Assembly (NCBI GenBank): GCA_034620365.1
Contig: JAQGEQ010000380.1
Location: 372,001 to 436,000, forward strand
Direction of reading: 5' to 3'
Length of the DNA stretch: 64,000 nt
Source: Pegea sp. RAD2-039
Taxonomy: Eukaryota; Chordata; Thaliacea; Salpida; Salpidae
A program made the position numbers and the translations under genes. The notes beneath the pieces are model-generated. The model was given only the letters and a program-made list of their open reading frames with translations. It searched no databases and had not been told where the DNA came from. Below, piece by piece: positions 1,220-62,967 of the stretch; positions within the stretch are counted from its first letter, which is position 1; every line of letters begins with the position of its first letter.

Positions 1220-1794
1220 ATATCAGATTGGTGGTTTTGCAGGATCCCTTGTTTTCAATTGACTTCCAATCTCAGTTTCTCAAATCCAACCTTGATTTCT
1301 TTGCGAACTTTAATAAATATTAAATCATCTTTTGAATTTTTTTGTCAGATATAAAAATTTTAATATTTTAAAGTCTTATTGAAATAAAATTGAAAATCAT
1401 TTATCAGATTTAAATATTATAAGCCAAATTTTCAAAAAATCACAATTGATAAATTGAAAATAGTTAAATTAAAATTTATTTAACTATAATTCAACAATAA
1501 TTTCCATTTATTTCAAATTAAATATAAAAAAAACACTTCTTGAAAAAATATTAAATTTATGAAAAATGCTTCCGACAATTTCCTTCAACTTGTATGCTTC
1601 CATGTCTGAAGACCTTTATTCAAATTTCAATAATAAAATTGCAACAATTATGATAAAATAATAAAGTCTAATTCAGATGAAAAAGCCATCGTTGCTAGGG
1701 AGACCTCACACTTTGACAAAATTCATTGTTTTAAAAGATCTGATTTTGTTGATCTATATTTTGAAGAAAATATCTTCCTAATAATCTGATTATA

Positions 1795-5471: not shown

Positions 5472-7837
5472 AGTCGAAATATATCAATAAAATGATTTGT
5501 AAATTATTTTATTATGTTGTAAAGGTGTTTCGGTAAAATTAAAATCTTTTGTAATCAATAATCTATAAAGCTGTTTGCTAGCAAAATGTTAAATAAATAG
5601 TTTAAATATTGATGATAAGTTTGGGCAGTACTCAAGAATAATTAAATTTGGTACTTTAATTTTTGTATTAGACAAACACTAAATTATAAACAATTATATC
5701 GTGAAAATTTAGAGTGGATAGAAAAAAGGAATAGAATATAAGTTTTTTATTCTAAAAACTAAAAGTAATGTATTTCCAACTCTTTAAACATTTCAAACAC
5801 TAGTAATGTCTTATTACGATTATAACAGACTTAATGTTTACTGTATTTGTTGGTTGTCTATAAATTTAAAATTTAATTACATTTTTATTAATAAAATTCA
5901 GTTATTATAACAATTTCATGATTTTCAAAATAGTTGATTAAAGAAATTTATGTGAGGTTAGATAACTTGCATCATACAGCTCAATCATGTTGAGTTGACT
6001 TAAGCTTTAACTAAGCAATCGATAACGTGTTTCTTTTAAGCAAGTAGTAAGTTAGTTCACATAAAAACTAATTAAATCTAACAATCACTACTTCGTGCTT
6101 ATTTTTAAAGTTTCTATAAGAAAGTGATTTCTATTTAATGAAAAATATGTTCTCTTAAATTAAATTTTCTTTTTAAACTTCATTAATTTTCCAATTTTTT
6201 AGTTTTTTGGTACTTGATGCTTTGAAAGACTTGACTTCTACAGAACGGAAAGCCCAAACTTTTAAGTATCAGAGTGATTCTTTAAGCATCATTTGTATGG
6301 TTCTATGGTTCAACAGAAGCAACAGATATATTCCGTAAACTTCAGAATACTTTTTTAGAAGCAAACAGTCTTCTTTCGAGACTGTTTGCAATTGTATTAG
6401 AATTATATTTGTCTTTCTATGTTGAGGCCTAACTTCAGCAATCAGTTTATATGGTGAAAAAATAGTCCAAGAAAATTGCTAAGACTCTGGACAAGCTAAA
6501 TGCGTCTAAAATTATAATTTCAGTTAATTTATTCAAAACTTATTGATACTGAATGATGATCTGGTACATGACAGGTTCTGATGTTACTCAATTAGGATTG
6601 TTAAATGTTATTTAACTTGACTTGGTAACAAACTTGGTGCTAAAAGAATTAGAACGAATAGATTTAACATTGAATAGCGATATGACTTCATTACAATTGA
6701 TCTTCAAGTATAAAGGCATAAATAAATTATTGGAATACACGAAACAAACTTTGTATCTCTGTTTCATTTAATTTTTTAATATTATTATTATGTTAAAGGT
6801 AAAATACTAAGCTAAAAGTTTCTGGTTTAAATATCCCAATTGGATTGCAAACTTTCAAAAGAATTCTTTCCTTACTTGCTTCAAAAAAAAGTTTGTGAAG
6901 AATTTCTTGTAATAACGAATCAACATCTCAACCGGCTAATATTTCAAGTAGCTTTTGCTAACCGCATTCTCAAGAATTACATCACTCTTGAGATGATTAG
7001 AAATATAATATTAAACATTAAAACGACTTTCCAGAAACTTTTTTAATATTTTAAAATATTTACATGACAAAATGATTTCCAGTAAATCTACTTTATTTTC
7101 TCGACTTTGGTAATTTTTGTTGATGTCTTGTTTATTGCTCTAAACTACTTTGAAGTTTAAAAATTAGATCTATATTATAAAACAAAACATAATTTTCTGA
7201 ACTTTCGAAATAAAAAACAATTTCTTATCGAAAATGATTAGATATTTATCAACATAGTTAATAGCTTTAAAACATTATTTACAAAATTATCAATTAAAAT
7301 GCTTATCGATATATATCCGTTTAGTTGCAACATGTAATTAAATCTTGTTTTTTATTTGATATTTATTTCTTAAAGTCATTAATTAGTTTTGTTCAAAACA
7401 TGATTTCCGCCAAAGTATCTAATAAATAACTTTAAACTAAGTAATGACATTTTAGATATTAAAAGAGTTTAAAACAGTTATATGAAAACAGAAATTAACA
7501 AAATATTTTACTATTATGAAGTTTCAACTGCTGATAAAATATCCTTTTTAATATTTAATATTTTTTCCTTAAGGTTTTTTTAAAAACGTTAAATGTCTAT
7601 TTACCTGGTTTTATTTTTTTTAATATTTTTATTTTATAAAGTTATTTTAATAAATTTACTTTGTAATGATTCTTATCAATATATAAATATTATAGTAATA
7701 TCCTTACTTAATAAATATTATCTTAAATAACTAGACATAGATTATTAATATCAAAAATAATTTGCATTAAACCAATACTCTTATTTTAGAACAACTTTAA
7801 TCTCATCTCAAATTGATTTCAAAGTTGATCTAGTTGT
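5472..7837. other. A+T-rich intergenic stretch, no gene supported
   Basis: Very A+T rich. Two short open stretches (about 6205-6335 and 6840-7046, + strand) are slightly less A+T rich than their surroundings. They resemble no protein I know and lack partners with convincing splice sites. They may be remnants of a repeat or of a decayed gene. Confidence 0.4.
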
Positions 7838-8851
7838 TTGGCAATGGTACAGGAAAGAAACTTATTAAATTTGACAAACAATCGTTTCCTTGAAGGGCCG
7901 ACTTATTACAAATATAGTTGGATCTTAGCTCAAATTGTTTCAGCTATCATTCTAATTTTTTCTATATGGATAACTTTTTCGCTGATAATCTCTGGAAGAA
8001 AAAGTAAGAAATGGAAATTGAGAAATATGGACAAAGCTTCTATTTTAAGAACTATAGGTGTATTTTGTCCTATCACACTTATTATTAGAGCTTTGTCAAC
8101 TCAGGCGTTAGTCTTTATTGAAAAATTTGAACCTAATGATGAAAGAGGAGATCGTATGTGCGAAATGGTCGTTGATGCTTCATTTTTTTTCTTTGCAGTC
8201 GTTATATTTCCTACTTATGTCTTTCTGTGGTACAGGCTAAAGATGCTTTACTCTCGACCGACGTTGCAAAGTATGAATAACAAAGTTGTACGATTTTTTA
8301 GTTTTTTGTATGTGATTTGTTTAATTTTGGGTGGTGGTTCGTCAGCTTTCCTAGTTACTATTCCCAGAAGTTTTCAAATGTCAAATTTTGGTTGCGTTTA
8401 TTTGGCTGTACAACCAGTAGATAGAAAAGCAAATATTGTTACTGCTGCCACCTTAGTGTTTTCGCAAGTAATATTACTTGGGTTGTTCTGTTATCCTTTC
8501 ATAAGACATAGAAAAGAAAGTAAGAATTTAACAAATAGTAGTAGAAATGCAAAACCTGATAAAGCAATGTTTAAAGCGATTCGATCAGCAACTATTTCAA
8601 CTATTATTTGTGTTATATCAGATATTGTTTCAATTATTTTAGTAGGTATTTTAGGCAATCGTGGGGCTCCTTTAACTTTAACAAGACCTATATATGATGT
8701 AAGCTTGTTTATTAATGTAATTTCAGTCTTGTTTTCCTTTGATAAGTTTAAAACTATTTTCTTTGGATTTTGTACATCAAATGTAGAAACCAACCCCACA
8801 TCAACTAATCTACAAAGCCTACGTTCAATTAACACTACAACTTCTTGTTAA
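7838..8851 (+). CDS. atypical 7TM receptor-like protein, paralogue A
   Basis: Intronless, 337 residues, ATG start. Seven hydrophobic helices are visible at roughly residues 27-52, 70-95, 113-132, 150-172, 200-222, 250-275 and 285-308. A Cys at the start of helix 3 (CEMVVDAS) and one in the following extracellular loop (MSNFGC) would form the usual GPCR disulfide. Instead of DRY, the end of helix 3 carries the family signature PTYxFLWYRxxMLYxxP, which is also present in the two paralogues downstream. The loop between helices 5 and 6 is Lys/Arg rich, as expected for a cytoplasmic loop. N-terminal NLT is a possible glycosylation site. This is the first of three head-to-tail copies. Ligand and coupling are unknown; I do not recognise it as rhodopsin, adhesion, frizzled or glutamate class. 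Confidence 0.8.
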   Translation: MAMVQERNLLNLTNNRFLEGPTYYKYSWILAQIVSAIILIFSIWITFSLIISGRKSKKWKLRNMDKASILRTIGVFCPITLIIRALSTQALVFIEKFEPNDERGDRMCEMVVDASFFFFAVVIFPTYVFLWYRLKMLYSRPTLQSMNNKVVRFFSFLYVICLILGGGSSAFLVTIPRSFQMSNFGCVYLAVQPVDRKANIVTAATLVFSQVILLGLFCYPFIRHRKESKNLTNSSRNAKPDKAMFKAIRSATISTIICVISDIVSIILVGILGNRGAPLTLTRPIYDVSLFINVISVLFSFDKFKTIFFGFCTSNVETNPTSTNLQSLRSINTTTSC

Positions 8852-10978: not shown

Positions 10979-11190
10979 TTTTTTTTTTTTTTTTTTATTA
11001 TATATATAAATGCGAAGGAGGGTGCCTAAAGAGAGCACATCTCACTAACACACATTCTCGGGAGTTTTTTATGGTTTTTCTCAGGAGTTTTATATGTCTC
11101 CACCTGGGGTCGAACCCGGTACTTCCTAGCTAGATGTACCTTGTAGCTAGGTGTAGTAACCGCTTCGCCACCAAGCAGGACAAATTTTTT
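10979..11190 (-). mobile_element. tRNA-headed SINE with LINE-type hairpin tail
   Basis: Read on the minus strand, the element begins near 11182 with a tRNA-like head. The A-box-like TGGCGAAGCGG is at 11160-11170 and the B-box-like GGGTTCGACCCCAG at 11104-11117, at a spacing typical of an internal pol III promoter. A linker holding two AAACTCC(T/C)GAGAA units follows. Next comes the tail GAATGTGTGTTAG, an imperfect hairpin with arms near 11018-11046, and CGCATTTATATATATAATA running into a long A tract (T tract at 10979-10997 on +). The same tail, without the tRNA head, occurs at five other places in the window. The head is divergent enough from a working tRNA that I do not call a tRNA gene. 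Confidence 0.8.
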
Positions 11191-11910: not shown

Positions 11911-12921
11911 ATGATGAGTACAAATACTACAGAAGCAAGACACAATAACAAAGAAGGACTTAAGACTTAAGACTACATAAAACATTTGTGGATCTTTTCT
12001 CAAGTAGCAAACAGTTTTATATTTTTAACAACAATTTGGATTTTAATATCTTTTATCAGATATACTCAAAAATTAAGGAGCTCTAATCCAAACCGTAGCA
12101 GTAATCGACGGAAACATTTCATTGCCTTATGGTTTATTTTTTGCTCTGTGGTTTTAATCTTGCGACTTATAACAACGCAAGTATTATTAGTTTTGAATGA
12201 ATTGAGTAATTCTGACTTAGTTGGTTACGTAAGCTGTGAGAAAATAATGGATTTGTCTTTAATACTATTTCCGGTGGCAACACTACCTACGTACATGTTT
12301 CTATGGTATCGGCAACGAATGTTGTATGAGCAACCTTCACTGAAACATCTAAAAGGAACTAAAGTAAAAATATTTAGTCATAGCGTAATTGCTATTTTAT
12401 TTACGTTAGGAACGGTTTCTACCCTTACAAGTACAATCCCCAAAAGTTATCAAATGTCAAATATCGGCTGCATTCAGCGATTAGATCAAAGTCCTAATTT
12501 CTTAGCAAATTATTTAAACGCTTTAACATTAGTCTCATCACAAACTATTTTACTCGGACTCTTCTGTTACCCTCTTTTCATGCACTACAAGACAAATAAG
12601 TCCATCAGATCACTGTATATTAGAACTCAGAGAGAAAACTTTACAAATTTTACTAATAAAGCCATAAAATCGGCGATTCTTTCGATGACAATTTGTATTT
12701 CAACTGATATAGTTGCAATGATACTTTCTACTGTTGTTCTTGATAGGAAAACACCATTGTATGTTTCAAGAACTATATATGATTTTAGTTTGTTGATAAA
12801 TATGATGTCTGTGATGTTTTCTTTTATCAAAGTCAAACAATTCATGCTTACGTATTGCTTTATATTTACATCTATTGAAAAGACAACAGACTGCAGAGAA
12901 TCTACTGTGTTTGATATTTAG
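11911..12921 (+). CDS. atypical 7TM receptor-like protein, paralogue B, with in-frame TAA near the N terminus
   Basis: The body from about 11971 to 12921 is open and encodes all seven helices, the helix-3 Cys (SCEKIMDLS), the loop Cys (MSNIGC) and the signature PTYMFLWYRQRMLYEQP. No ATG lies between the stop and helix 1. The only suitable ATG is at 11911, exactly in frame; it gives 19 residues (MMSTNTTEARHNNKEGLKT), then TAA at 11968-11970, then DYIKHLWIFSQ. Length and composition of this N terminus match paralogues A and C, so the TAA looks like a recent nonsense change. The next in-frame Met lies at the start of helix 3 and would lose two helices. The gene may be a young pseudogene, a readthrough gene, or contain a sequencing error or allelic variant. 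Confidence 0.7.
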
Positions 12922-13999
12922 ATTTTTTTGGTAGCATACATCCATCAACGTATTTATTTTCTACGTGCAAATACTAACTTTTATCAAGAAGATTTTCCTG
13001 CAACGCCAGTATTTTTTTTCTCATCGATATTTATCTGACAGCCTCTTTTACACTTTATAATGTTAAGTTTGCCAATCTATTTGTATCTTTAATGTTTTAT
13101 CACGAAGGCTTTTTCTTTACTTTTATTTCTGTAGTAATATTATTTTTTCTCTGAAGACACATAAATAAAATTCAATTTATTTTAGTTTTATGACTCAAAT
13201 CAAAAGAACAATTAGTATTAGAAGCAGTATTCAGTTTCTTAGATATTAAAAGTATCTTCATAAAAATCTTATAAACTGTACAACTACAAAGCTAAGATTA
13301 CAAAGTGATTCACTTCCTTTTACTTAATCGAACAAAATACTTTTTAGCTACAATAGTAGATAACAATTTCTAGCTGTTCATAAACTATTTATTACAATTC
13401 TTATGACTTTTAGACAGTTTTTTGAGTTCCTTATCGTGTTTGACAGTCAGCAACTGTTTTTAGAAATAATATAGGGTATGAATTCAGCAACAAAGTAATC
13501 TATTCAAAGTTTATCAATAAAGATTTAATTATGGAATCAACTTTTGATGAAAGTAATAATAGTAATGCTTAATTTGAGTAGAAAAAATTGATTATAAATA
13601 AGTAATTGAAAACGATAACTAAACTTTAATGATTATATTTATATAAAAGTTGATGTAATTTGGAATATGATTTTAATATAGAGTTTAGGATTCATTTTCA
13701 GTGAAAATCTGATTAAAAGTTAGAAACGTAGAAATATAAAAACACAGCATGAAGAAAATAATCCAAAGGTGTGTTTCAAAACTGTTTTCATAAATCATAG
13801 CAGTTAAGCCATTAAAAGATTTTTCATTTAAAACATAAATTAAGCTAAGATGAAAAAGTTCACTCTTCGTTTATTTGCTAGATTTATTAACTTATTTTTA
13901 TTTCCCAAGCTTTAAAAGAAATTACTTAAAATAAAAAATAGGAAATTTGTGAAGCTCAGAATACAAATGTTAATATGTTGATGATCTAAAAGCTAGAAA
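12922..13999. other. intergenic stretch between 7TM paralogues B and C
   Basis: About 1.1 kb of A+T-rich DNA. I see no gene, repeat copy or clear regulatory motif in it. Confidence 0.4.
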
Positions 14000-14992
14000 A
14001 TGACGCTAAACACAACTGATTTAAATAATAGCAGTTTGAAAGATGGATCTGATTTTCAAAATTTCTGGGTAATATCTCAAACCTTGACTGCAATTGTATA
14101 TTTGGGTTCAATTTGGTTCATATGCTCTTTGATTTACTATGGAAAGGTCACAAATAAATGGAAAAAAGATAAATTAGGTCAGTACAAAAGTTTATGGATG
14201 ATGTCATTGGCAGTGGGGAGTCCAACTGCTGCCATTATGCGAGCTTTGTGCACACAAGTAGTTTTAATCGTTGGTGAAAGCAATAATTACTTTAAAGATG
14301 GAGACTATGCTTGCGAAATTTCTATGGATGTTTCTATTATACTTTACGGAGTAGCCCTTGCACCAACTTATTTCTTTTTATGGTATCGGCAAAAAATGCT
14401 GTACACCGAACCTGTAATGAAACACTTAAATACGAAATTAGTGAAAGTTCTTAGTAGTTGTTTTGTGGCTCTTTCTGTAGCTGCTTCGTTGTCCTGTACT
14501 ATAATTGCTACATACCCGAAGTCATATATTTTATTGGAAACAGGTTGTTGTTTAAAGGACGACGCAACTAGTTTCCTTGCCAACTATCTTGCTGGTGGAG
14601 CTTTAGTACTTTCACAAGTTATACTTTTTGGCTTATTTATAAATGTTCTTTTGTCCCAGGTGAAGAGAACCAATTTAATGAAGAATCAAACTAGTTCAAA
14701 AAAAGAGAAAACCAAAAAAGCCATATTACTAGCTGTAAAGAAGGCCGCTATCAGCATGGTTATTTGTTCAGCATCAGACATATTAGCCTTGGTTATAGTA
14801 TCTACTGTATTACCTCGTCAAACTCCAAGATGTCTAACGAATGCAGTTTATGATTTAGGACTTTTTTTCAACTCAATGTCGGTCATGATTTGCCTTGTGG
14901 ATATAAAATCTTTTATTTGTGGAACAAAAAACTTAAACTCTGCATCAAAACGATCTAAGTCTATTGAAATGACTTCATTTGCCTGTCCTTAA
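14000..14992 (+). CDS. atypical 7TM receptor-like protein, paralogue C
   Basis: Intronless, 330 residues, ATG start with possible N-glycosylation sites (NTT, NNSS) in a short outer N terminus. Seven hydrophobic helices are visible. The helix-3 Cys is in ACEISMDVS and the loop Cys in LLETGCC. The family signature PTYFFLWYRQKMLYTEP closes helix 3. The helix 5-6 loop is strongly basic (SSKKEKTKKA). Helix 7 region DLGLFFNSMSVM parallels DVSLFINVISVL of paralogue A and DFSLLINMMSVM of paralogue B. The reading frame is intact. It is the most diverged of the three copies in the loops, which fits ligand diversification, but function is unknown. Confidence 0.8.
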   Translation: MTLNTTDLNNSSLKDGSDFQNFWVISQTLTAIVYLGSIWFICSLIYYGKVTNKWKKDKLGQYKSLWMMSLAVGSPTAAIMRALCTQVVLIVGESNNYFKDGDYACEISMDVSIILYGVALAPTYFFLWYRQKMLYTEPVMKHLNTKLVKVLSSCFVALSVAASLSCTIIATYPKSYILLETGCCLKDDATSFLANYLAGGALVLSQVILFGLFINVLLSQVKRTNLMKNQTSSKKEKTKKAILLAVKKAAISMVICSASDILALVIVSTVLPRQTPRCLTNAVYDLGLFFNSMSVMICLVDIKSFICGTKNLNSASKRSKSIEMTSFACP

Positions 14993-19125: not shown

Positions 19126-22100
19126 TAAACACAATGTAATGCAAAATTTAAAAAAAATCTGTACAAATTAAAAAATTGATAAAAAGTAGCAGACAATATT
19201 ATTTAAACAAAAGTATCTAAAAATATCTATATAAGTTTAAATAAAATAAATTAAAGTCAATTTTAAAGTTTAATCTCTAATATCTAAACCAAACACCAGT
19301 ATAATATAATTACATTTATATTTATAAAAATTCTACAAAAAACAACTTGATAATAAATGTGTGAAATACCATGTGTTACATCTTTTACTTTTTATATTTT
19401 TTGCTAAATAGATATTATTTGTGAGAATGTGTGTTAGCGAGAGGTACTCTTTTCAGGTACCCTCCTTCGCATTTATTGAAATAAATAAATAAAGTTTTAC
19501 AAAGAATAGACTAACTATAAATGTTGCTAGATGAGTAAAACAGTGAAATTATTCTAACATTTATTTACTACATTTATTTAAACATACAATTTTTTACTTG
19601 TGGCAAGATAAATAATATATAATTAAGTAGTATATTAAAGTAAATTTAGTTTTTATATCTACAAAGTAGTAATTAAATATTAATCGAAATTTTTTGCTAC
19701 AAACACTTAAAGTATATATTTAAATTATAAGAACTACAAAAGTATCTTTTAAAAATAAATAAATACTTGTCAGTTAAATCATGTAATTGAATGGAATGAT
19801 TGAGCATGAGAATTATAATATAAATTTTAATCACTATTTAATTCTTATTAATATTATAAGAGTAATTTCAAAACAATGCTTATTATTTAAACATTTATGA
19901 CTAAATTTAAAGAAGATTAACCCAAAGTTCAAATCATAATACTAGATCTAGTATTTTAACATTTTTGATTAATTAAAATTTGTTTTTTTTTAATTTTAGG
20001 TAAACTATCAACTAATAAACATATGCAATTAACTGTAAAAATGAAATCTTTTGTTAATTTTTTAATAAAAATCGTGTTGAACCCGTGCAATAGTTTCGTT
20101 GAAGGGAGTTTTATTTTCAATAATTTAGCTTTTGCCGAAAATGGATGCTCTGCTGCAAATCGAACTTTATAACTTTTTTATATCAAAATTTTTATATCAT
20201 CTTTCAATTACCAAACAATAGCTGGTGTACTTTTACCTCAGATATTACGTAAGACTCAAGTTATTACTAAGAAAATTAGACACTAAATTACAAGTCAAGT
20301 TACCAAATCAATGCAGCTAAATTTTGTTGCAAATTTTAGAATAACTACTCGATGACTATTGTTACATTAATAAATATCATAATTAAGTTATTTCAGCAAA
20401 CAGATTATATTTTGTTATTTACTACCGATGTAAAACAATTAAATGACTTGTTAAATATAAATTTCAAACGATCAAAAATTCTTTTCATATTAAAAGTTTG
20501 AAGTATCGAATTTGAAACCAACATTTTTAAACATATTTATTCTAAGCTAATTGAGAACTTTTAAGATAAAAGACCGTTTATGGGTCCTATGTTAACTCAT
20601 AAATTTAAGTATAAATCACACATGTACAGCTAGAGTAAAATGCATTAAAATCTAGTCAAAAAAAAGATTATAAGTATTTTTTGCAGTACCAAAAACAAAA
20701 TTAATGATAAAAAATTTTTAAGAAATTATCACCCGGTTGTTTGTAGACCAAATAATGATCAACACGAGTAAGAAAGTACAGTTGTAATAAGGTTTAATAA
20801 CAAGTCTTTTTTTTAAAGAACATAGTTTTAATTACATTTGAGATGTTTATGTAAAATCTACTATTAAAATTTTACAAAGCATCAATGAAAAATTTTCAGG
20901 TTACTTCCTGACTATTCAAAATTTCTGCAAGCTGAGCATAAAAAGAATGATTCTAGAAAAATAAAGCTAAAAATCAAATTTGCAACAAAAGATCACACTG
21001 TAAAGGATTTGATAAAGTGCTTTCAGAGTATTTTATCATCTTTAAATTCTCAAGCATAACTAACAACGGATAAATCATCGCAGCTGATATTTTGCTGTAG
21101 TTTACAAAAAAGCATTTTCTTTTAGTTAGCAAATCAAAAATACTCCTTTGGAAAACTGCCACTTTACAATTGTTAAATTTCAGGTAAAAACTTTAAAAAT
21201 TAAACAAATTATACACAGTTTAACTAAAATAAAAACACTGATAAGATATTCTTTTTTAGATTAATAAAGTGTGACGAACTAAAAACACCTTCACTTAAAA
21301 TGATATATGCACTGAAAAGATACAACTGTGTCTAATTCTTCGTGTTTTATTACTTTTTTTCTCAGTGAAAAATAGAGATCATATTATTTTTAAAAAGTGT
21401 AAGAATCATTAAAAAAATTTTCTCAATAAAGTTTTCATAATTTGGTTTTTTAATTAAATATAGTTTAAAACTTACAATCTACAATATATTCTTGAATATA
21501 TATTATTTATAAAGCCAAATTTAATTATCATATTTTTTGGAGTAAATAAAATTATATTTATAATTGTATCATTTTCTCCTACTTGATTTTAATAAAATAT
21601 GTTTTTGATTAGGTTCTTTACCCAAACTTACATTTTTATTTGTTAATTTTGTTTTTGGCTCACAGCTTTTTTATTTGTTATTGATGAGTTCTTATTTTTA
21701 TCTATGTAATTAAGAGTTTTAGAAAAATATAGTTTCGTTCAATTTTTTATTTCCTAATATTATCTATTAATTCTAATGCTGTATTAGAATACTCTATCAT
21801 TTTCTACTTAAAGTATTTTAAACAAGAATAATAAAACATTTTAATATTTTAAAATAAATTTGGATGTTTTATATTATAAAATATAGATAAAATATTTTTA
21901 TAAAGAACCTTTTATATATTAGCTATTACTTTAATATAATAACTTATTCTGCCCAAAATGACTTGAAATTTATATAAAACTTTAGGAAAATTGTAAGGTA
22001 TAAAGTTTTTGTAAAAAAACAATACAAATTTGAAATATTAGTATATATTACTATTACTTGCAAAATATAAGTTTTATTAAAAAGTTAAGTTTTAATAACT

Positions 22101-29863: not shown

Positions 29864-31994
29864 AATTAGAATAAAAAGAGGTCAAGGTTCCATCACTAAC
29901 ACTGGAAATAAACTTATATATAAAAAGAGAAAAACAAATACATTCAATTAAGGTAAAATATTTTATGTTCAACTAAAATATACTCAGTAAAATATTAACT
30001 TTTAATCATAAGTATAAAGATCATAGTTTAACTTTCATAGCTTAACTTACTTTAGCTTTAGCATTTAATTCTAAATACAAACTTCATTAGATTATTAAGA
30101 AAATCAAAAATAAAAAGCCTTATAAATTAATCAAAAAACTACTAGATAGAAAAGATATATTTTCTACAATAATAAAATTATATTTATTCTTAAGTTAAAA
30201 GCAATTTTTCTACTCTACTCAAAATTATCATAAATTAAAAAAAACTATTGTATTCACAACTTTACCTAACATTTAGAAATACTCGGAGTTTATTTTTAAA
30301 GCAGTTACATAATTCTCATCCTTTTTAAATTAGCAAAATAAGATTGAAATAATTAAAGCAATAATTTTAATAATGGATAAATTGCTTCTAATACAATCTT
30401 TTTAAAAAATTACAATAAAATTATATTTATTTGTGTTTAAAATCATAAATAAAAAGCAAACTAAAAGTAAACAAAATAATAAAGAAGCAATATACTGAAA
30501 GTCATTACAGCTTCTTTTATAAATTCTACATTATATTTACATTTATTGGGAACGCCTTTACTAAGTTCAAGTACAAAAAAATATAAATGATAACAAATTT
30601 GAAATAAACAAGTTTAAGTATTTGGGTACTAAGTGAAACGGCGCAGGCCAAGTTAGTATCAGACCATAATGATAATTATTATATACAGCTTTTGTGGAAA
30701 AAACGCTGTTTCTATTTTATTATCATCATATTTCTTGTGGCTGAGTCTTAAATCTTCTACAAATAAGTATTCAAAAATTGAAAGACTTCAGCAAATTGAA
30801 AGTGCTAAAATTATTAAAAGTTTTTATTAACTATAATTTTTCGTTTTTTTTTTATAAAAATAAAATTTGCATTTAATTTATTATATTCTTATTTTTTAAC
30901 GCAAACTAAACGAATTGGTGACTGATGATGAAAATAACTTTTCTATTTTAAAGTTTTTAAGATCCAAAGATTCTGAATAGCTATTTTATTTTATTTATTA
31001 CAATATTCAATCTTTAAATCTTACAAAAAACAAATTTTAATGGTTCTGATAAACTTTTATAATAATTGTCATTTACTTTAGATAAATATATAGCTTGAAA
31101 TTTTGAATATTTTGGCTTTTCATCTGGCCATATAATAGAGTAAGATTAATTTTTTTAAGTAAGAATTAGCTACATAAACAATAAGGTGCTTAATTAAATA
31201 AGCACTTAAATCCTTACGCAAAAAAATCATAAAAGATCTTTGTAGTATTTATTTTATCACTTTATAAATAATTTTATAATTTATAGAAATAAATTTTTAA
31301 AATAAAATTTTAGCGACAACTCGGGCGAAAGTTTTTTAAGTTCATTATTTTTGGTAGCAGAGCGACCACATTAACAAAAACTCTTACGTCTGGTGTCGTT
31401 ATTTTATTATTAAGATTAATTTTGTTTGAGCTTTAGTCCTAAGAAATTTAAAATTTATATATGTATTTAAAATCGATCTATACTTGTACAATAATTGTTT
31501 CTAAAAGATTTTTATTAATTCTTATTCCAACAAATTAAAAATTAAATTTATATCTTACTTAATTTGCTGTTTTGCAAAGGTTTATTAACTGTTTTTATTT
31601 GATAATATAAATTAGCTTTTTATTTATTTATTTATTTCAATAAATGTGAAGCAGGGTACATGAAAAAAGTACCTCTCGCTAACACACATTCTCACAAATA
31701 GATTTATAAATAATTAATGATGTCATATACTACTTAAGATAAAATAAAAGTTATTTCTCAGTTATAATTATTTTAGATAAAGCTATTTTATGTTTTTTCA
31801 GTGATTTCAGTAATGACTAGTTTTCATACCTAACTTCAGTTAGGAGTTGATTTGATTTTTATGAAAAAATTTAGAAGGAATTTAATGAAAAAAATTTTTT
31901 AAATCTTAACAATTTTTATAAAATTTTGATGATAATTTTTATAAGTTGATTAACTAAATAGTTCAATTAAAATTTCCCTTTCTGACCTAATGAA
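29864..31994. other. divergent intergenic stretch, likely two promoters
   Basis: 2.1 kb between the 5' ends of the TBC gene (-) and the CENP-V-like gene (+), so promoters of both should lie here. Composition is very A+T rich. One LINE/SINE tail copy is at 31619-31700. No TATA box or factor site stands out from the background. Confidence 0.4.
31619..31700 (-). mobile_element. LINE/SINE 3' hairpin tail
   Basis: Minus-strand copy of the tail: GAGAATGTGTGTTAGCGAG, hairpin GCGAGAGGTAC against GTACCCTGCTTCAC, then ATTTATTGAAATAAATAAAT. It is truncated close to the hairpin, so I cannot tell whether the parent was the LINE or the SINE. Confidence 0.65.
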
Positions 31995-42034: not shown

Positions 42035-42155
42035 ATTTATTTATTACAATAAACGTGAAGGAGGGTGCCTGAAAAGAGTACCTCTAGCTAGAACATATTC
42101 TCAAATAATATTTCATATAATAAAGTTGAAAATACATAAATAAGAACATGTAGCA
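42035..42155 (-). mobile_element. LINE 3' end with hairpin tail, diverged
   Basis: Minus-strand copy: AACGCCAAATGCTACATGTT, an A+T spacer, GAGAATATGTTCTAGCTAGA, hairpin arm GGCACCCTCCTTCACG, then TTTATTGTAATAAATAAATA. It is more diverged than the neighbouring copy at 42485. Confidence 0.65.
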
Positions 42156-42484: not shown

Positions 42485-42630
42485 ATCAGATATTTATTTA
42501 TTACAATAAATGCGAAGGAGGGTGCCTAAATAGAGCACCTCCCGCTAACACACATTCTCACAAATAACATTTATTAAGTTAGAAATATAGAAAGAAAAAG
42601 ATGTAACACATGGCATTTCGATAGTCCTTA
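42485..42630 (-). mobile_element. LINE 3' end with hairpin tail, well preserved
   Basis: Minus-strand copy: CGAAATGCCATGTGTTACAT, CTTTTTCTTTCTATATTT, then GTGAGAATGTGTGTTAGCGG, hairpin arms GCGGGAGGTGC and GGCACCCTCCTTCGC, and ATTTATTGTAATAAATAAAT. It joins the string found next to the LINE C terminus (47315-47345) with the hairpin tail of the SINE, so it is the key link between the two. Confidence 0.75.
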
Positions 42631-42944
42631 AAGCATATGACAGTGAACAGTTGCATAAAATTATAATAATCTTGAAAAAAAAGAAGAAAAATTCACAGTT
42701 TAGAAATGACAATGTTGGCAATATTATAACGGTTCAACTTCTTTTTGAACAACGCGAGTGTATGCTATTCAAAATCATAAATGAACTCTGTAATCAATAA
42801 GTAATTTTAATTTCGTTAATAAGTGAATCATAATAATGCCAGTCGTTTTTTTCAGCTTATTTTGTACTGTTGAAATGTAACTTATAATTCTTCAGTCTAA
42901 TTTTTTCTATGTCAATTATGCTAACCGTGAAACCAAAGACTTTT

Positions 42945-44604: not shown

Positions 44605-44959
44605 AACCGACTAGTTTACCTTTGCCGTCTGGAAATAAAAAACCTAATATCTAACTTTAGAATTTAAATATTGGGTTTAGAAACATGTTAGGGGATTTTT
44701 GTAGACGATCAATTGCTCTAAACAGTTAAAATAATTTCCTTTCTGTGGAGAGGCTACACTGTGCAATTGAATTCTATTTGAATAAGTTTCAAGTTATAGG
44801 TTATATCCTATTTAAATAAGTGTTTATAAGTTATTTTATAAAATTATTTTTAAAAAGTGATTAGCATATTGCTTGTGATAAAATATTCTATCTGAATAAG
44901 AAATCGATTTGAACTATTCTGATTAGTGAAACTAAAAATCTTTCATGAAAGTGAAAACT

Positions 44960-46381
44960 ATGGTGGATCCAAATAAAAGTGGCAAGATCTTACATTCCAG
45001 TATACAGAAAAGTTCTGATAAACCGACTTCATCCAAACAATAAAAGTTGCTTTTATGAGGATCTGGCAATAGAATGTATTAAATGTCTCTCCTGGTTTCA
45101 TCTCACCGGTAGTGTTGTGAGCAAGAAAATTTATGAAATATTTGAAAACAATCAGATGAAGCAAATGGGATTTAAATATTTCTGCATTAAATGTAGAACC
45201 ATGGGCATAACATCGATCTCCTCTAATTCTAATTCAAACTTAATGTCCGACATCAGTAAATCTATATCTGCTGAAATGGCCGAATTTAAATCTAAAATTG
45301 GCAACGATTTCGCCATGATCAACAACAAAAATTCTAGTTTGTCTAAATTAATGGACGAACTGGATGCCTCTACAAAGAAACAAGTCACATGGGCCTCGAT
45401 GGTCGGTGATCCCAGTTCCAACAAAAAATGCTAACATGATGTAGCTTCTTACCAAGAAGGTCACCGACACGCACAAAAATTTACTTTGGACCAGGAAGAC
45501 AAAGAAAACAATGGCAGCATATTTAATGTCTCTGAAACTGATAAAGATAATGACAGTAAGTTTTTAAATCAAATGTGTTCATAAGGCCTTGATTTTATGG
45601 ATGTTCCAAAGGTATTAATGACCAGACATGGAGTATATGTATAAAGACAGGATATCTGTAAAGATGATCGCTTAGAAAATAAATGTCTTCTAAAAGAGGC
45701 GTATAACAGAAACCAGAAGGAACAACCAACTGATTTCAAATACAAAGCTCGAGATCCACCCGTGGGCCTTGAAAATTGTCAAGGTTTTATTTTTAAATGG
45801 AAGTGGCAAATAACCACTGGATCTACATCTACTTTTTCAACTCTCTCCGCACACAATTGTGATTACCCAAGATATCAGTTTACGGAAGCCCATCATCAAA
45901 CCTCACAAGCGTCAAAAAGACAATTCTTTTATCACATTAGGTATGTTCTTCAACGCGCGGTCGATAATTAACAAAATTTTCCAATTGAAAGCTCTTTTGC
46001 ATTCTCAAGATTTCACATTTGTTTTTATTACTGAAACTTGGTTGAAACCGTTTTATCCTGATTCTTTTCTGGTTGACGGTAATCTTTTTTGTGTTTTGCG
46101 TTGTGATAGATTGTATGATAGAGGCGGCAGTGTTTGCGTAATTTACAAAATATCGCTTGCACCCAAGATCTCTAGAATTCAGATCGATGCCATTAATTGT
46201 CCTGGATTTGAGATTATCACTTCTGATTTTTCTTACTCAAAGTTTAAATTTTCCCGTTTTATTTGTACCTACATACCACCCTCAGTCATGCCCTTGTAAG
46301 CTTCCTCAATGCCAATAACCAATCTCAAATGGTTACTTTTCCGACCCAAGTTAGTGGTAATACTTTGGATCCTATTATCAC
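44960..46381 (+). mobile_element. decayed CR1/L2-like LINE: ORF1 zinc finger and endonuclease fragment
   Basis: An ORF1-like frame at about 44979-45434 has Cys/His spacing of a PHD-type finger (CIKCLSWFHLTG then YFCIKC), as in ORF1 of CR1/L2-type elements. After frame breaks, 45859-46299 encodes an APE-type endonuclease piece (FFNARSIINKIFQLKALL, FVFITETWL, GGSVCVIYK). It continues in another frame to about 46380 with VTFPTQVSGNTLDPI, the usual end of that domain. No intact frame spans the element and the reverse transcriptase is missing, so this copy is dead. Confidence 0.8.
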
Positions 46382-46490
46382 ATATTTAGTTATTGCTAAC
46401 ATAATTGTTTAAAGAATAAATATTCTGTTATATTGTAAAAAAATATTTTAAAGTAACCGTAACTTACATCAAAAGCATCTTGTAACAGCA
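46382..46490 (-). repeat. partial duplicate of the acetyltransferase intron 3 and exon 3 junction
   Basis: This segment matches 43533-43645 almost base for base: both share TTTAGTTATTGCTAACATAA, then TGTTTAAAGAATAAATATT, TTATATTGTAAAAAA, and ACATCAAAAGCATCTTGTAA. The copy has a small gap before AACTTACATC. The matching part of the gene includes the splice donor side of exon 3 and its last ~20 coding bases. The copy abuts the broken 3' edge of the LINE endonuclease fragment. Confidence 0.85.
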
Positions 46491-47079: not shown

Positions 47080-47345
47080 CAATCAAACACTACGCCTTAA
47101 TAAGCCCATATCACCTAGTACATTGGTCAGAGCAAACTTTTCTTATACCGCACAATTAGTACTTGGAACTAGCTGCCATCAGACATTGTCATGTCAGAAT
47201 CACTCATGCTGTTCAAGCAGAATTTGAAATGTTTTTAACATTATTTAAACTGTGATTGTTTCTCTATATTACTAACATTCTATGTAAATTTTCACTGTTA
47301 AATGGTTTGCGGATTACTGAAATGCCATGTGTTACATCTTTTGCT
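47080..47345 (+). mobile_element. LINE ORF2 C terminus and 3' UTR fragment
   Basis: Across two frames it reads as the characteristic end of a CR1/L2-like polyprotein: SYRTI-STWN, LPSDIVMSESLMLFK and a short tail FLTLFKL followed by a stop near 47253. About 60 bp on comes GAAATGCCATGTGTTACATC, then TTTTGCTTTCTACATTTT, the string that precedes the hairpin tail at 19362 and 42485. It lies on the same strand and downstream of the endonuclease fragment, so the two may belong to one element with its middle deleted or interrupted. Confidence 0.65.
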
Positions 47346-61374: not shown

Positions 61375-62967
61375 CTAATGTATTTTGCTTTGGCATTTTA
61401 GCAACTATTGTTACATCGTTTTTGCTCAACATGTATTTATCTGATTTAATTCTATGAATCGCTCATACAAATTATCTTCAAGAAAAGATTTTAAAAGAAA
61501 TAACTTAATTGAGTGGCCAAGGAGTGAAAAAACTCTAATGATTTTCAAATTATTACCTTTCTGAAAATGTTGATTAACCAAAACAAACAAAGAAATGTGT
61601 TCATTCAACATAAATATTCGAATTAAATCTGTTTGTTCAATCAAAAATGTGTTTTCATGCATTATTTATTAATGATAGATGAAAAGATTGAAATACAACT
61701 AAGTTCATTGAACATTTATTTGGCTCCCACTAATAAAGGAAAATTTTTTTTTCCACTAATTATTTAGTCAACAAGTTTTTGCTTTAAACACCTTTTTTAT
61801 TTCGTTACACAAATTTTTTTATGTAATTACTCCTTTCATAATTTTTTATTATCAATTTTCTTTCTTTTATAAGTAAATCAATGTTGACTTGAAATCTGCC
61901 AAATAGATTTTAAAGATAACAAAGTTTTCAATCTACGAGAAAGTTATCTAATAAATACCTTTTATAACACATTTTATATCATATCTGTTTTTTCTATAAA
62001 TCAAATTAGTTTTAATAGCTAAGCAAGCTATTCTTTTCATTTTTTGGGAATAATCCAAATTTCTGTATTTTAAATCTTTTTCTTGTTGAATTCTGAATAT
62101 AAAAATTCTTGATTGTATTTATCATGCTTTAGATCATAGTCAATTATAATTGAATGACGTTTGAAAGTTTATCTTAAAGTAATTCTTATTTTGAAGTTTC
62201 TATTCAATACCAAAACGTTTTTTTCTCAGAACTTGAACCCAGCATTGATAAAACAAAATAGTTAACTTTTGTGCACGAAGTTACTAACAAACACAAATTA
62301 CATTTAGTATAAATATTTGGAAGATAGAATTGAGCTTTTATTGATTGATAAGACAAAAATTTAGATTTAATAGAAGCTGAAATACTAATCGAACTTATTA
62401 GAAGCCAAATCTAAATTTTGTGGCTAATTTTAATTTATGACCAAACTTAATGAACAAGCTATTTTAACTTTTTTTTATAAAACCTTTCGAAATATATTTG
62501 AACATCTATTTTTTTCGGTATTTTTATTTTAATATATTCATAATAATTATATTATTTGTAAGGATGTGTGTTAGCGAGAGGTGTTCTCTTCAAGCACTTT
62601 CCTTCGCATTTATTGTAATAAATATTTGCTACATGGTGAGAAATAATATTAGGATATTGTTAAGTAAGATTTCTTAAAATATATTTAATTATTGACCAAC
62701 ATTTTTATGTAACCAGTATTTAATATAATAAATTTGTAAAAAGGTAAAAATATTCATTTTATGGTAAAAAATGGAAAACTAAAAACACAAGACTGCGAAC
62801 AAAAGGAACTGAAAACATTTCAGCGATGAAAAATATAAAATAAGAAAAGATTTTTTATGATATTTGTAGTAAATCAACTATCAACTTAAAAATTCAGCTT
62901 ATCTCCAAAAAAGTAATTCAAATCACCAATACACATTTGATAATTTCATCTCATTTACAACCAAATT
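61375..62967. other. convergent intergenic stretch
   Basis: 1.6 kb between the 3' ends of the BTB gene (+) and ILKAP (-). It is A+T rich. It holds one LINE/SINE tail copy at 62545-62625. No gene is supported. Confidence 0.4.
62545..62625 (+). mobile_element. LINE/SINE 3' hairpin tail
   Basis: Plus-strand copy: AAGGATGTGTGTTAGCGAGA, hairpin arms GCGAGAGGTGT and AGCACTTTCCTTCGC, then ATTTATTGTAATAAATAT. The second arm carries changes that still allow part of the stem. No tRNA-like head or LINE 3' UTR string is visible upstream. Confidence 0.65.

Follow-up and report, generated by a model that had tools for sequence, protein, structure and literature searches.

A tRNA-headed SINE and an endonuclease/reverse transcriptase LINE share a 3′ tail with a predicted hairpin in the Pegea genome

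The SINE copy in the window and its tRNA-like head

The window is a 64,000-nucleotide stretch of a contig from the A+T-rich genome of Pegea sp. RAD2-039 (JAQGEQ010000380.1, positions 372,001 to 436,000), with a G+C content of 27%. Sequence reading and BLAST placed a whole copy of a SINE of what we call type II, inclusive of its A-rich 3′ end, at 10980–11181 on the minus strand. Its 5′ end is the G at 11181, and the element starts GTCCTGC. The tRNA-like head contains an A box (TGGCGAAGCGG, 11160–11170, minus strand), read from the sequence by its established motif, and a B box (GGTTCGACCCC, 11106–11116, minus strand), also read from the sequence. A short A-rich linker lies between the head and a LINE-derived 54-bp tail with a predicted hairpin (11006–11059, minus strand; BLAST and folding), after which come ATATATAATAAA and an A-run to about 10980. 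The boxes, linker, and tail that a first-pass annotation had proposed for a minus-strand element are all present at 11181–10980. The tail motif it gave is there as GTGTGTTAGTGAG, with one change from its version, but the element does not end in ATTTATT as had been stated; the actual end is ATTTATATATA running into poly(A). Three adjacent open frames also occur in this part of the window (7829–8851, 11971–12921, and 13997–14992, plus strand); they encode 316–340 aa with 33–39% mutual identity and by eye resemble multi-pass membrane proteins, and Pfam returned no family above the cut-off for any of the three.

The element is a short, dispersed, high-copy, and non-coding repeat of about 200 bp. 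A first look at the genome (a 105.7-Mb assembly in 387 contigs) gave 1824 candidate copies, the 40 best of which scored 95–100% identical to the window copy, and a search for exact B box-tail joints returned 168 copies, a lower bound like all our exact-match counts, against 0 for a reversed-pattern control. Many tRNA-headed copies, which the first-pass annotation had named as support for its proposal, thus exist, and recent copies are among them. Judged on these sequences, the window element can be taken as confirmed to be a young tRNA-headed SINE.

We analyzed 49 copies, of which 18 were assigned to type I and 31 to type II. Compared with the type I majority, the type II head is 10 bases longer in the anticodon region and carries three substitutions, one of which reflects how the type I rows were selected. 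Head-tail rows in the type I sample mostly carry CTCGTGAG, and this position is unusable for separating the types. At a threshold of 85%, ARAGORN folded the type I head into a 75-nt cloverleaf of tRNA-Arg(TCT); at 90% or at the default it called no tRNA in either type of head, and with the threshold lowered to 75%, 10 of 500 shuffled versions of the type I head were also called as tRNAs. In individual copies, ARAGORN assigned Arg to four of type I and Cys(aca) to the type II copy of the window. ARAGORN in its bacterial setting found no tRNA in the whole window, and an Rfam scan of seven copies, that of the window included, detected no tRNA, returning only chance-level matches to unrelated families. 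The predicted fold of the type II head is a long rod (−40.3 kcal/mol, vs −26.2 kcal/mol for the type I head).

The shared tail and the probable partner LINE

Five copies of the tail motif, including that of the SINE, are present in the window at up to two mismatches, vs 0.24 expected from shuffles, and none of 100 shuffles reached this number. BLAST with the SINE body found the tail at five other sites in the window (80–93% identity). Two of these sites are 3′ ends of 5′-truncated LINEs. At 19361–19493 (plus strand; BLAST), the 3′ end of a LINE-B copy, a member of an older subfamily marked by a characteristic 3′ UTR string, consists of the string, the tail (19423–19476), and (AATA)n; at 42491–42751 (minus strand), an ORF2 C-terminal remnant is followed by the string, the tail (42559–42506), and (AATA)n. 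The string had been claimed to precede the tail at 19362 and 42485, and we found it there at about 19362 and 42.6 kb. A further tail copy at 31640–31693 (minus strand; BLAST and folding) has a GGTAC/GTACC hairpin and then (AATA)n, another lies at 62560–62613 (plus strand; BLAST 62561–62613), and a diverged one at 42049–42102 (minus strand; BLAST). The string was not found ahead of the tails at 31.7 and 62.6 kb.

An older LINE copy on the plus strand supplies coding sequence. Its 5′ part, with an ORF1 remnant and the start of ORF2, spans 44771–45788; the ORF1 remnant is an open frame at 44955–45434 (plus strand), which a weak match likens to a PHD-like finger. The endonuclease part of ORF2 follows at 45723–46383, with 79–87% DNA identity to LINE-A, a second subfamily described below, and a Pfam match of E 0.15 only. 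Past an internal deletion, the ORF2 C terminus and the 3′ UTR string occupy 47096–47345; the C terminus (47096–47298) is 72.7% identical to LINE-A, and the string sits at about 47320. The annotated juxtaposition of string and ORF2 C terminus at 47320 is therefore real, but the sequence after the string, when examined, lacks the hairpin tail. Because of this, the chain from ORF2 through string to tail is indirect inside the window and closes only genome-wide.

Genome-wide, the exact tail hairpin pattern occurs 1085 times, the LINE-B string joined to the tail 340 times, and the LINE-A 3′ UTR joined to the tail 326 times, with 0 matches for each reversed control; some of the copies found on small contigs may represent duplicated segments. 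That unrelated repeats match through low complexity, by chance or by an assembly artefact, is favored by the base composition of an A+T-rich genome (27% G+C in the window). We rejected a chance match on the 1085 exact tails against 0 reversed, and together with the failure of all 100 shuffles and the presence of copies on many contigs this leaves such an origin a negligible probability.

The LINE locus L071 contains an RT frame, the C terminus, the string with small changes, and then the tail. Its RT gave 1975 first-look candidates genome-wide, and 34 of the 150 scored lie in an open frame of at least 1000 aa. The loci with long open frames belong to LINE-A. The ORF1 of LINE-A runs for at least 329 codons and remains open up to the limit of the sampled stretch; its matches to a PHD-type finger fall below the Pfam cut-off (E 0.014–0.68). 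The LINE-A ORF2 frame, about 1024 aa in length, encodes endonuclease and RT; in L104, this frame matched RVT_1 (5.7e-39) and Exo_endo_phos_2 (2e-11). The tail follows ORF2 and the UTR in five of the five LINE-A copies in which the whole tail is covered (L080–L083 and L104), and ORF2 is open in these copies. The sequence of L108 starts inside the hairpin and that of L107 beyond it, and both show the terminal repeat, which is (AATA)n in all seven LINE-A copies examined.

The link from ORF2 to string to tail, which the first-pass annotation had only inferred, was also evident from coordinates. On contigs C1–C27, with the subfamilies separated by the query position at which the RT match stops, UTR and tail lie 870–951 nt downstream of the RT on the same strand in 28 of 35 LINE-A loci, and string and tail lie 614–945 nt downstream of the RT in 8 of 30 LINE-B loci; the misses (7 LINE-A, 22 LINE-B) include copies outside the exact patterns. 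Upstream placement and LINE-A/LINE-B cross-combinations, counted as controls, both gave 0. We rejected the two outcomes that had been named as contradicting the proposal: the tail is not confined to tRNA heads, as it follows LINE ORF2 and UTR, and LINEs do not end in an unrelated 3′ sequence, as LINE-A copies end in the tail of the SINE. The tail is common to the two elements, and is joined to a tRNA-like head on one side and to LINE 3′ ends on the other.

Two features of the LINE-A loci were noted in passing. L080 and L108 (G000:C249, ~718 kb and ~749 kb) are ~31 kb apart and have the same sequence beyond their 3′ ends. In both cases this flank is the 3′ end of a LINE-B on the opposite strand, so that two LINEs meeting tail to tail look to have been copied together by a segmental duplication. 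At LINE-A 5′ ends (L105 1918–2112 and L106 1846–2141), a stretch ahead of ORF1 is inserted or missing, perhaps reflecting alternative 5′ UTR units.

The match between SINE and LINE covers SINE bases 122–175 alone (54 bp), and BLAST finds no other similarity. The SINE tail is 92.6% identical to that of LINE-A, differing at 4 of 54 positions, and 80–94% identical to other LINE copies. Hence, the 3′ ends are similar as anticipated, but over about 54–56 bp rather than the last 60–80 bp. Many SINE copies of the older type have GT ahead of GAGAATG, as in the LINE (GTGAGAATG), and several have a LINE-like GCGAG; both features fit a SINE tail derived from the LINE. Sequence sharing alone gives no direction, and the LINE could in principle have taken its tail from the SINE, or both from a third source. 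Against such a course, the tail ends two diverged LINE subfamilies with an RT upstream, as well as many truncated LINE copies, and at many junctions in SINEs of the older type the similarity to the LINE continues past the tail; we regard it as very improbable, and infer descent from LINE to SINE. Two tails (C1:3782446 and C3:2918042) combine a SINE-like GAGATGTGC with a LINE-like CACATTTA and are possible intermediates between the two kinds of tail.

The predicted tail hairpin

Folding predicted a common structure, an outer stem GAAUGUG/CRCAUUU with an inner stem-loop, for five of six tails, the SINE included; the sixth, at 62556–62613, has a different best fold. Fold z-scores ranged from −1.65 for the SINE tail to −3.19 for LINE-A. 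The 47 distinct LINE tails give 846 cells, of which 93.4% are paired, compared with 39–60% in slid versions of the structure, a comparison that favors the tested structure since it was taken from one of the 47 tails. The observed pairing percentage was reached by 19 of 500 shuffles, and the covariation score by 17 of 500. Cells changed on both sides numbered 8, vs 3.6 in shuffles (reached by 11 of 500), and two other measures on the same 47 tails did not rise above shuffles: pairs changed on both sides (2; shuffle mean 2.6, reached by 395 of 500) and pair types (17, reached by 386 of 500). Each of the eight inner pairs is intact in 80 to 95 of the 96 tails listed. The inner stem of the SINE has a T where the LINEs have the G of a G-C pair, a replacement that would make the SINE hairpin slightly weaker. 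In the predicted hairpin, then, pairing is conserved and covariation is weak.

Two kinds of SINE 3′ end and traces of insertion

The two SINE types end differently. Among the 18 type I copies, 13 end in (AAAT)n, three in other sequence, and two in an A-run, whereas 27 of the 31 type II copies end in poly(A), two in (AAAT)n, and two otherwise. Exact patterns gave the same division genome-wide, with 43 (AAAT)n and 0 poly(A) ends for type I and 26 poly(A) and 2 (AAAT)n ends for type II, interrupted A-runs not being scored as poly(A). (AAAT)n is the terminal repeat of the LINE in another phase. Type I copies average 95.7% pairwise identity and type II copies 97.9%, figures that give no age ranking because the type II sample consists mostly of best matches to the window copy, which favors high identity.

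These ends bear on another account of the SINE, in which the tail is a passive passenger of old date and the young type II copies are moved by some other LINE of the relaxed, L1-like kind that recognizes poly(A). The 26 poly(A) against 2 (AAAT)n ends of type II, set beside the seven of seven LINE-A ends in (AATA)n, speak for it, as do the 4 of 54 tail positions at which SINE and LINE-A differ. However, the best-scoring copies include type II elements that retain the tail, and the terminal stretch of type II starts as that of type I does (ATATATAAA), so that slippage suffices to explain its poly(A). There is also a parallel in Squam3 of scaled reptiles, a SINE with an L2 partner, for which the excerpted text describes tail repeats that vary from subfamily to subfamily, with (TAAA)n and (CTT)n on record as well as poly(A) in some species (PMC7983390). 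On balance, a passenger tail seems unlikely to us. The type II end most likely goes back to a single source copy in which slippage on the A-rich terminal repeat became fixed. A bolder suggestion, which we consider doubtful, is that type II would retain the hairpin but be primed from its poly(A), and would represent an intermediate between stringent and relaxed recognition within one SINE family of a single genome; as part of this reading of a change in copying, the 10-nt insertion is predicted to rebuild the anticodon region into a long hairpin.

Direct repeats at the ends of 49 SINEs were longer than chance on average (mean common string 5.27 vs 4.60, sd 0.15; 0 of 500 shuffles), and repeats of at least 7 bp flank 10 of the 49, mostly of A/T, vs 4.3 expected. 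Thus the candidate target-site duplications, a check that had been proposed, exceed chance on average, but they are short and do so weakly. At L059, a SINE lies inside a LINE copy; comparison by eye with L071 suggests that its insertion duplicated about 5 bp and left a small number of filler bases. At L006, the tail of a SINE faces that of a LINE on the other strand (1437–1490, plus strand) across a few tens of bases, as if the SINE had inserted at the end of the LINE tail.

A probable stringent SINE/LINE pair and its known relatives

The first-pass annotation had seen in this locus the classical pattern of a SINE mobilized by a LINE through a common 3′ hairpin. Our results support this pattern, from which mobilization itself is inferred, and we put the probability at roughly 0.85 that a tRNA-derived SINE arose by fusion with a LINE tail whose hairpin the LINE ORF2 recognizes in mobilizing the SINE. 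A tRNA-Arg(UCU)-like transcript would have become fused to the last 54–56 nt or so of an endonuclease/RT LINE. The A and B boxes would direct transcription of the SINE by RNA polymerase III; the SINE RNA, recognized through its 3′ hairpin by the LINE ORF2 protein, would then be inserted by target-primed reverse transcription. Type I keeps the (AAAT)n of the LINE and type II ends in poly(A), with the hairpin probably still serving recognition. To the extent that sequence relationships can tell, the SINE very probably uses the copying enzyme of the LINE.

In L2-clade LINEs of fish, ORF2 was shown to recognize a 3′ stem-loop, in the part of the literature excerpted here (PMC4176376), and UnaL2 of eel, with its TGTAA terminal repeat, has been studied in experiments with an eel SINE (PMC3747384, as excerpted). 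The present pair resembles UnaL2 with its SINE, and ZfL2-1/ZfL2-2, in combining an endonuclease and RT LINE, a 3′ hairpin, and a short terminal repeat, but differs from them in having its own tail sequence and its own repeat, (AATA)n. In the interval between endonuclease and RT, where we sought the cTBR residues Pro-Trp .. Glu .. Trp, the L104 ORF2 stretch LPRYLRNLQHLKNLLYKQ has a Pro and neither Trp of the L2 cTBR (by eye, unaligned). The best solved chains for the LINE RT include R2 proteins, a result that is not a clade test. The combination of endonuclease, RT, and a short tandem repeat at the 3′ end is common to L2, CR1, and other LINEs.

Squam3, as described in the excerpt, has part of a CORE central domain (PMC7983390), whereas the present SINE has a short A-rich linker; unlike in Squam3 as excerpted, the split between (AAAT)n and poly(A) occurs here within one genome. 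The change of terminal repeat nevertheless has a near precedent in that family, so far as the excerpt goes (PMC7983390). Persaeus, a SIDE of Lepidoptera described in an excerpted source as depending on the CR1-like LINE Zenon (PMC6740152), is likewise a short non-autonomous element relying on a LINE, but a SIDE is an internally deleted LINE, and the SINE studied here starts with a tRNA-like Pol III head. The stringent SINE/LINE arrangement is already known, and the present pair, a description of which was not found among the matches listed from the open-licence literature, is a new example of it.

What the pair offers is a compact genome that combines a young SINE with a LINE of which many copies are open, and in which both states of the terminal repeat occur side by side. 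With such material one could well test whether a stringent LINE depends, at the RNA 3′ end, on the hairpin, on the last repeat, or on both.
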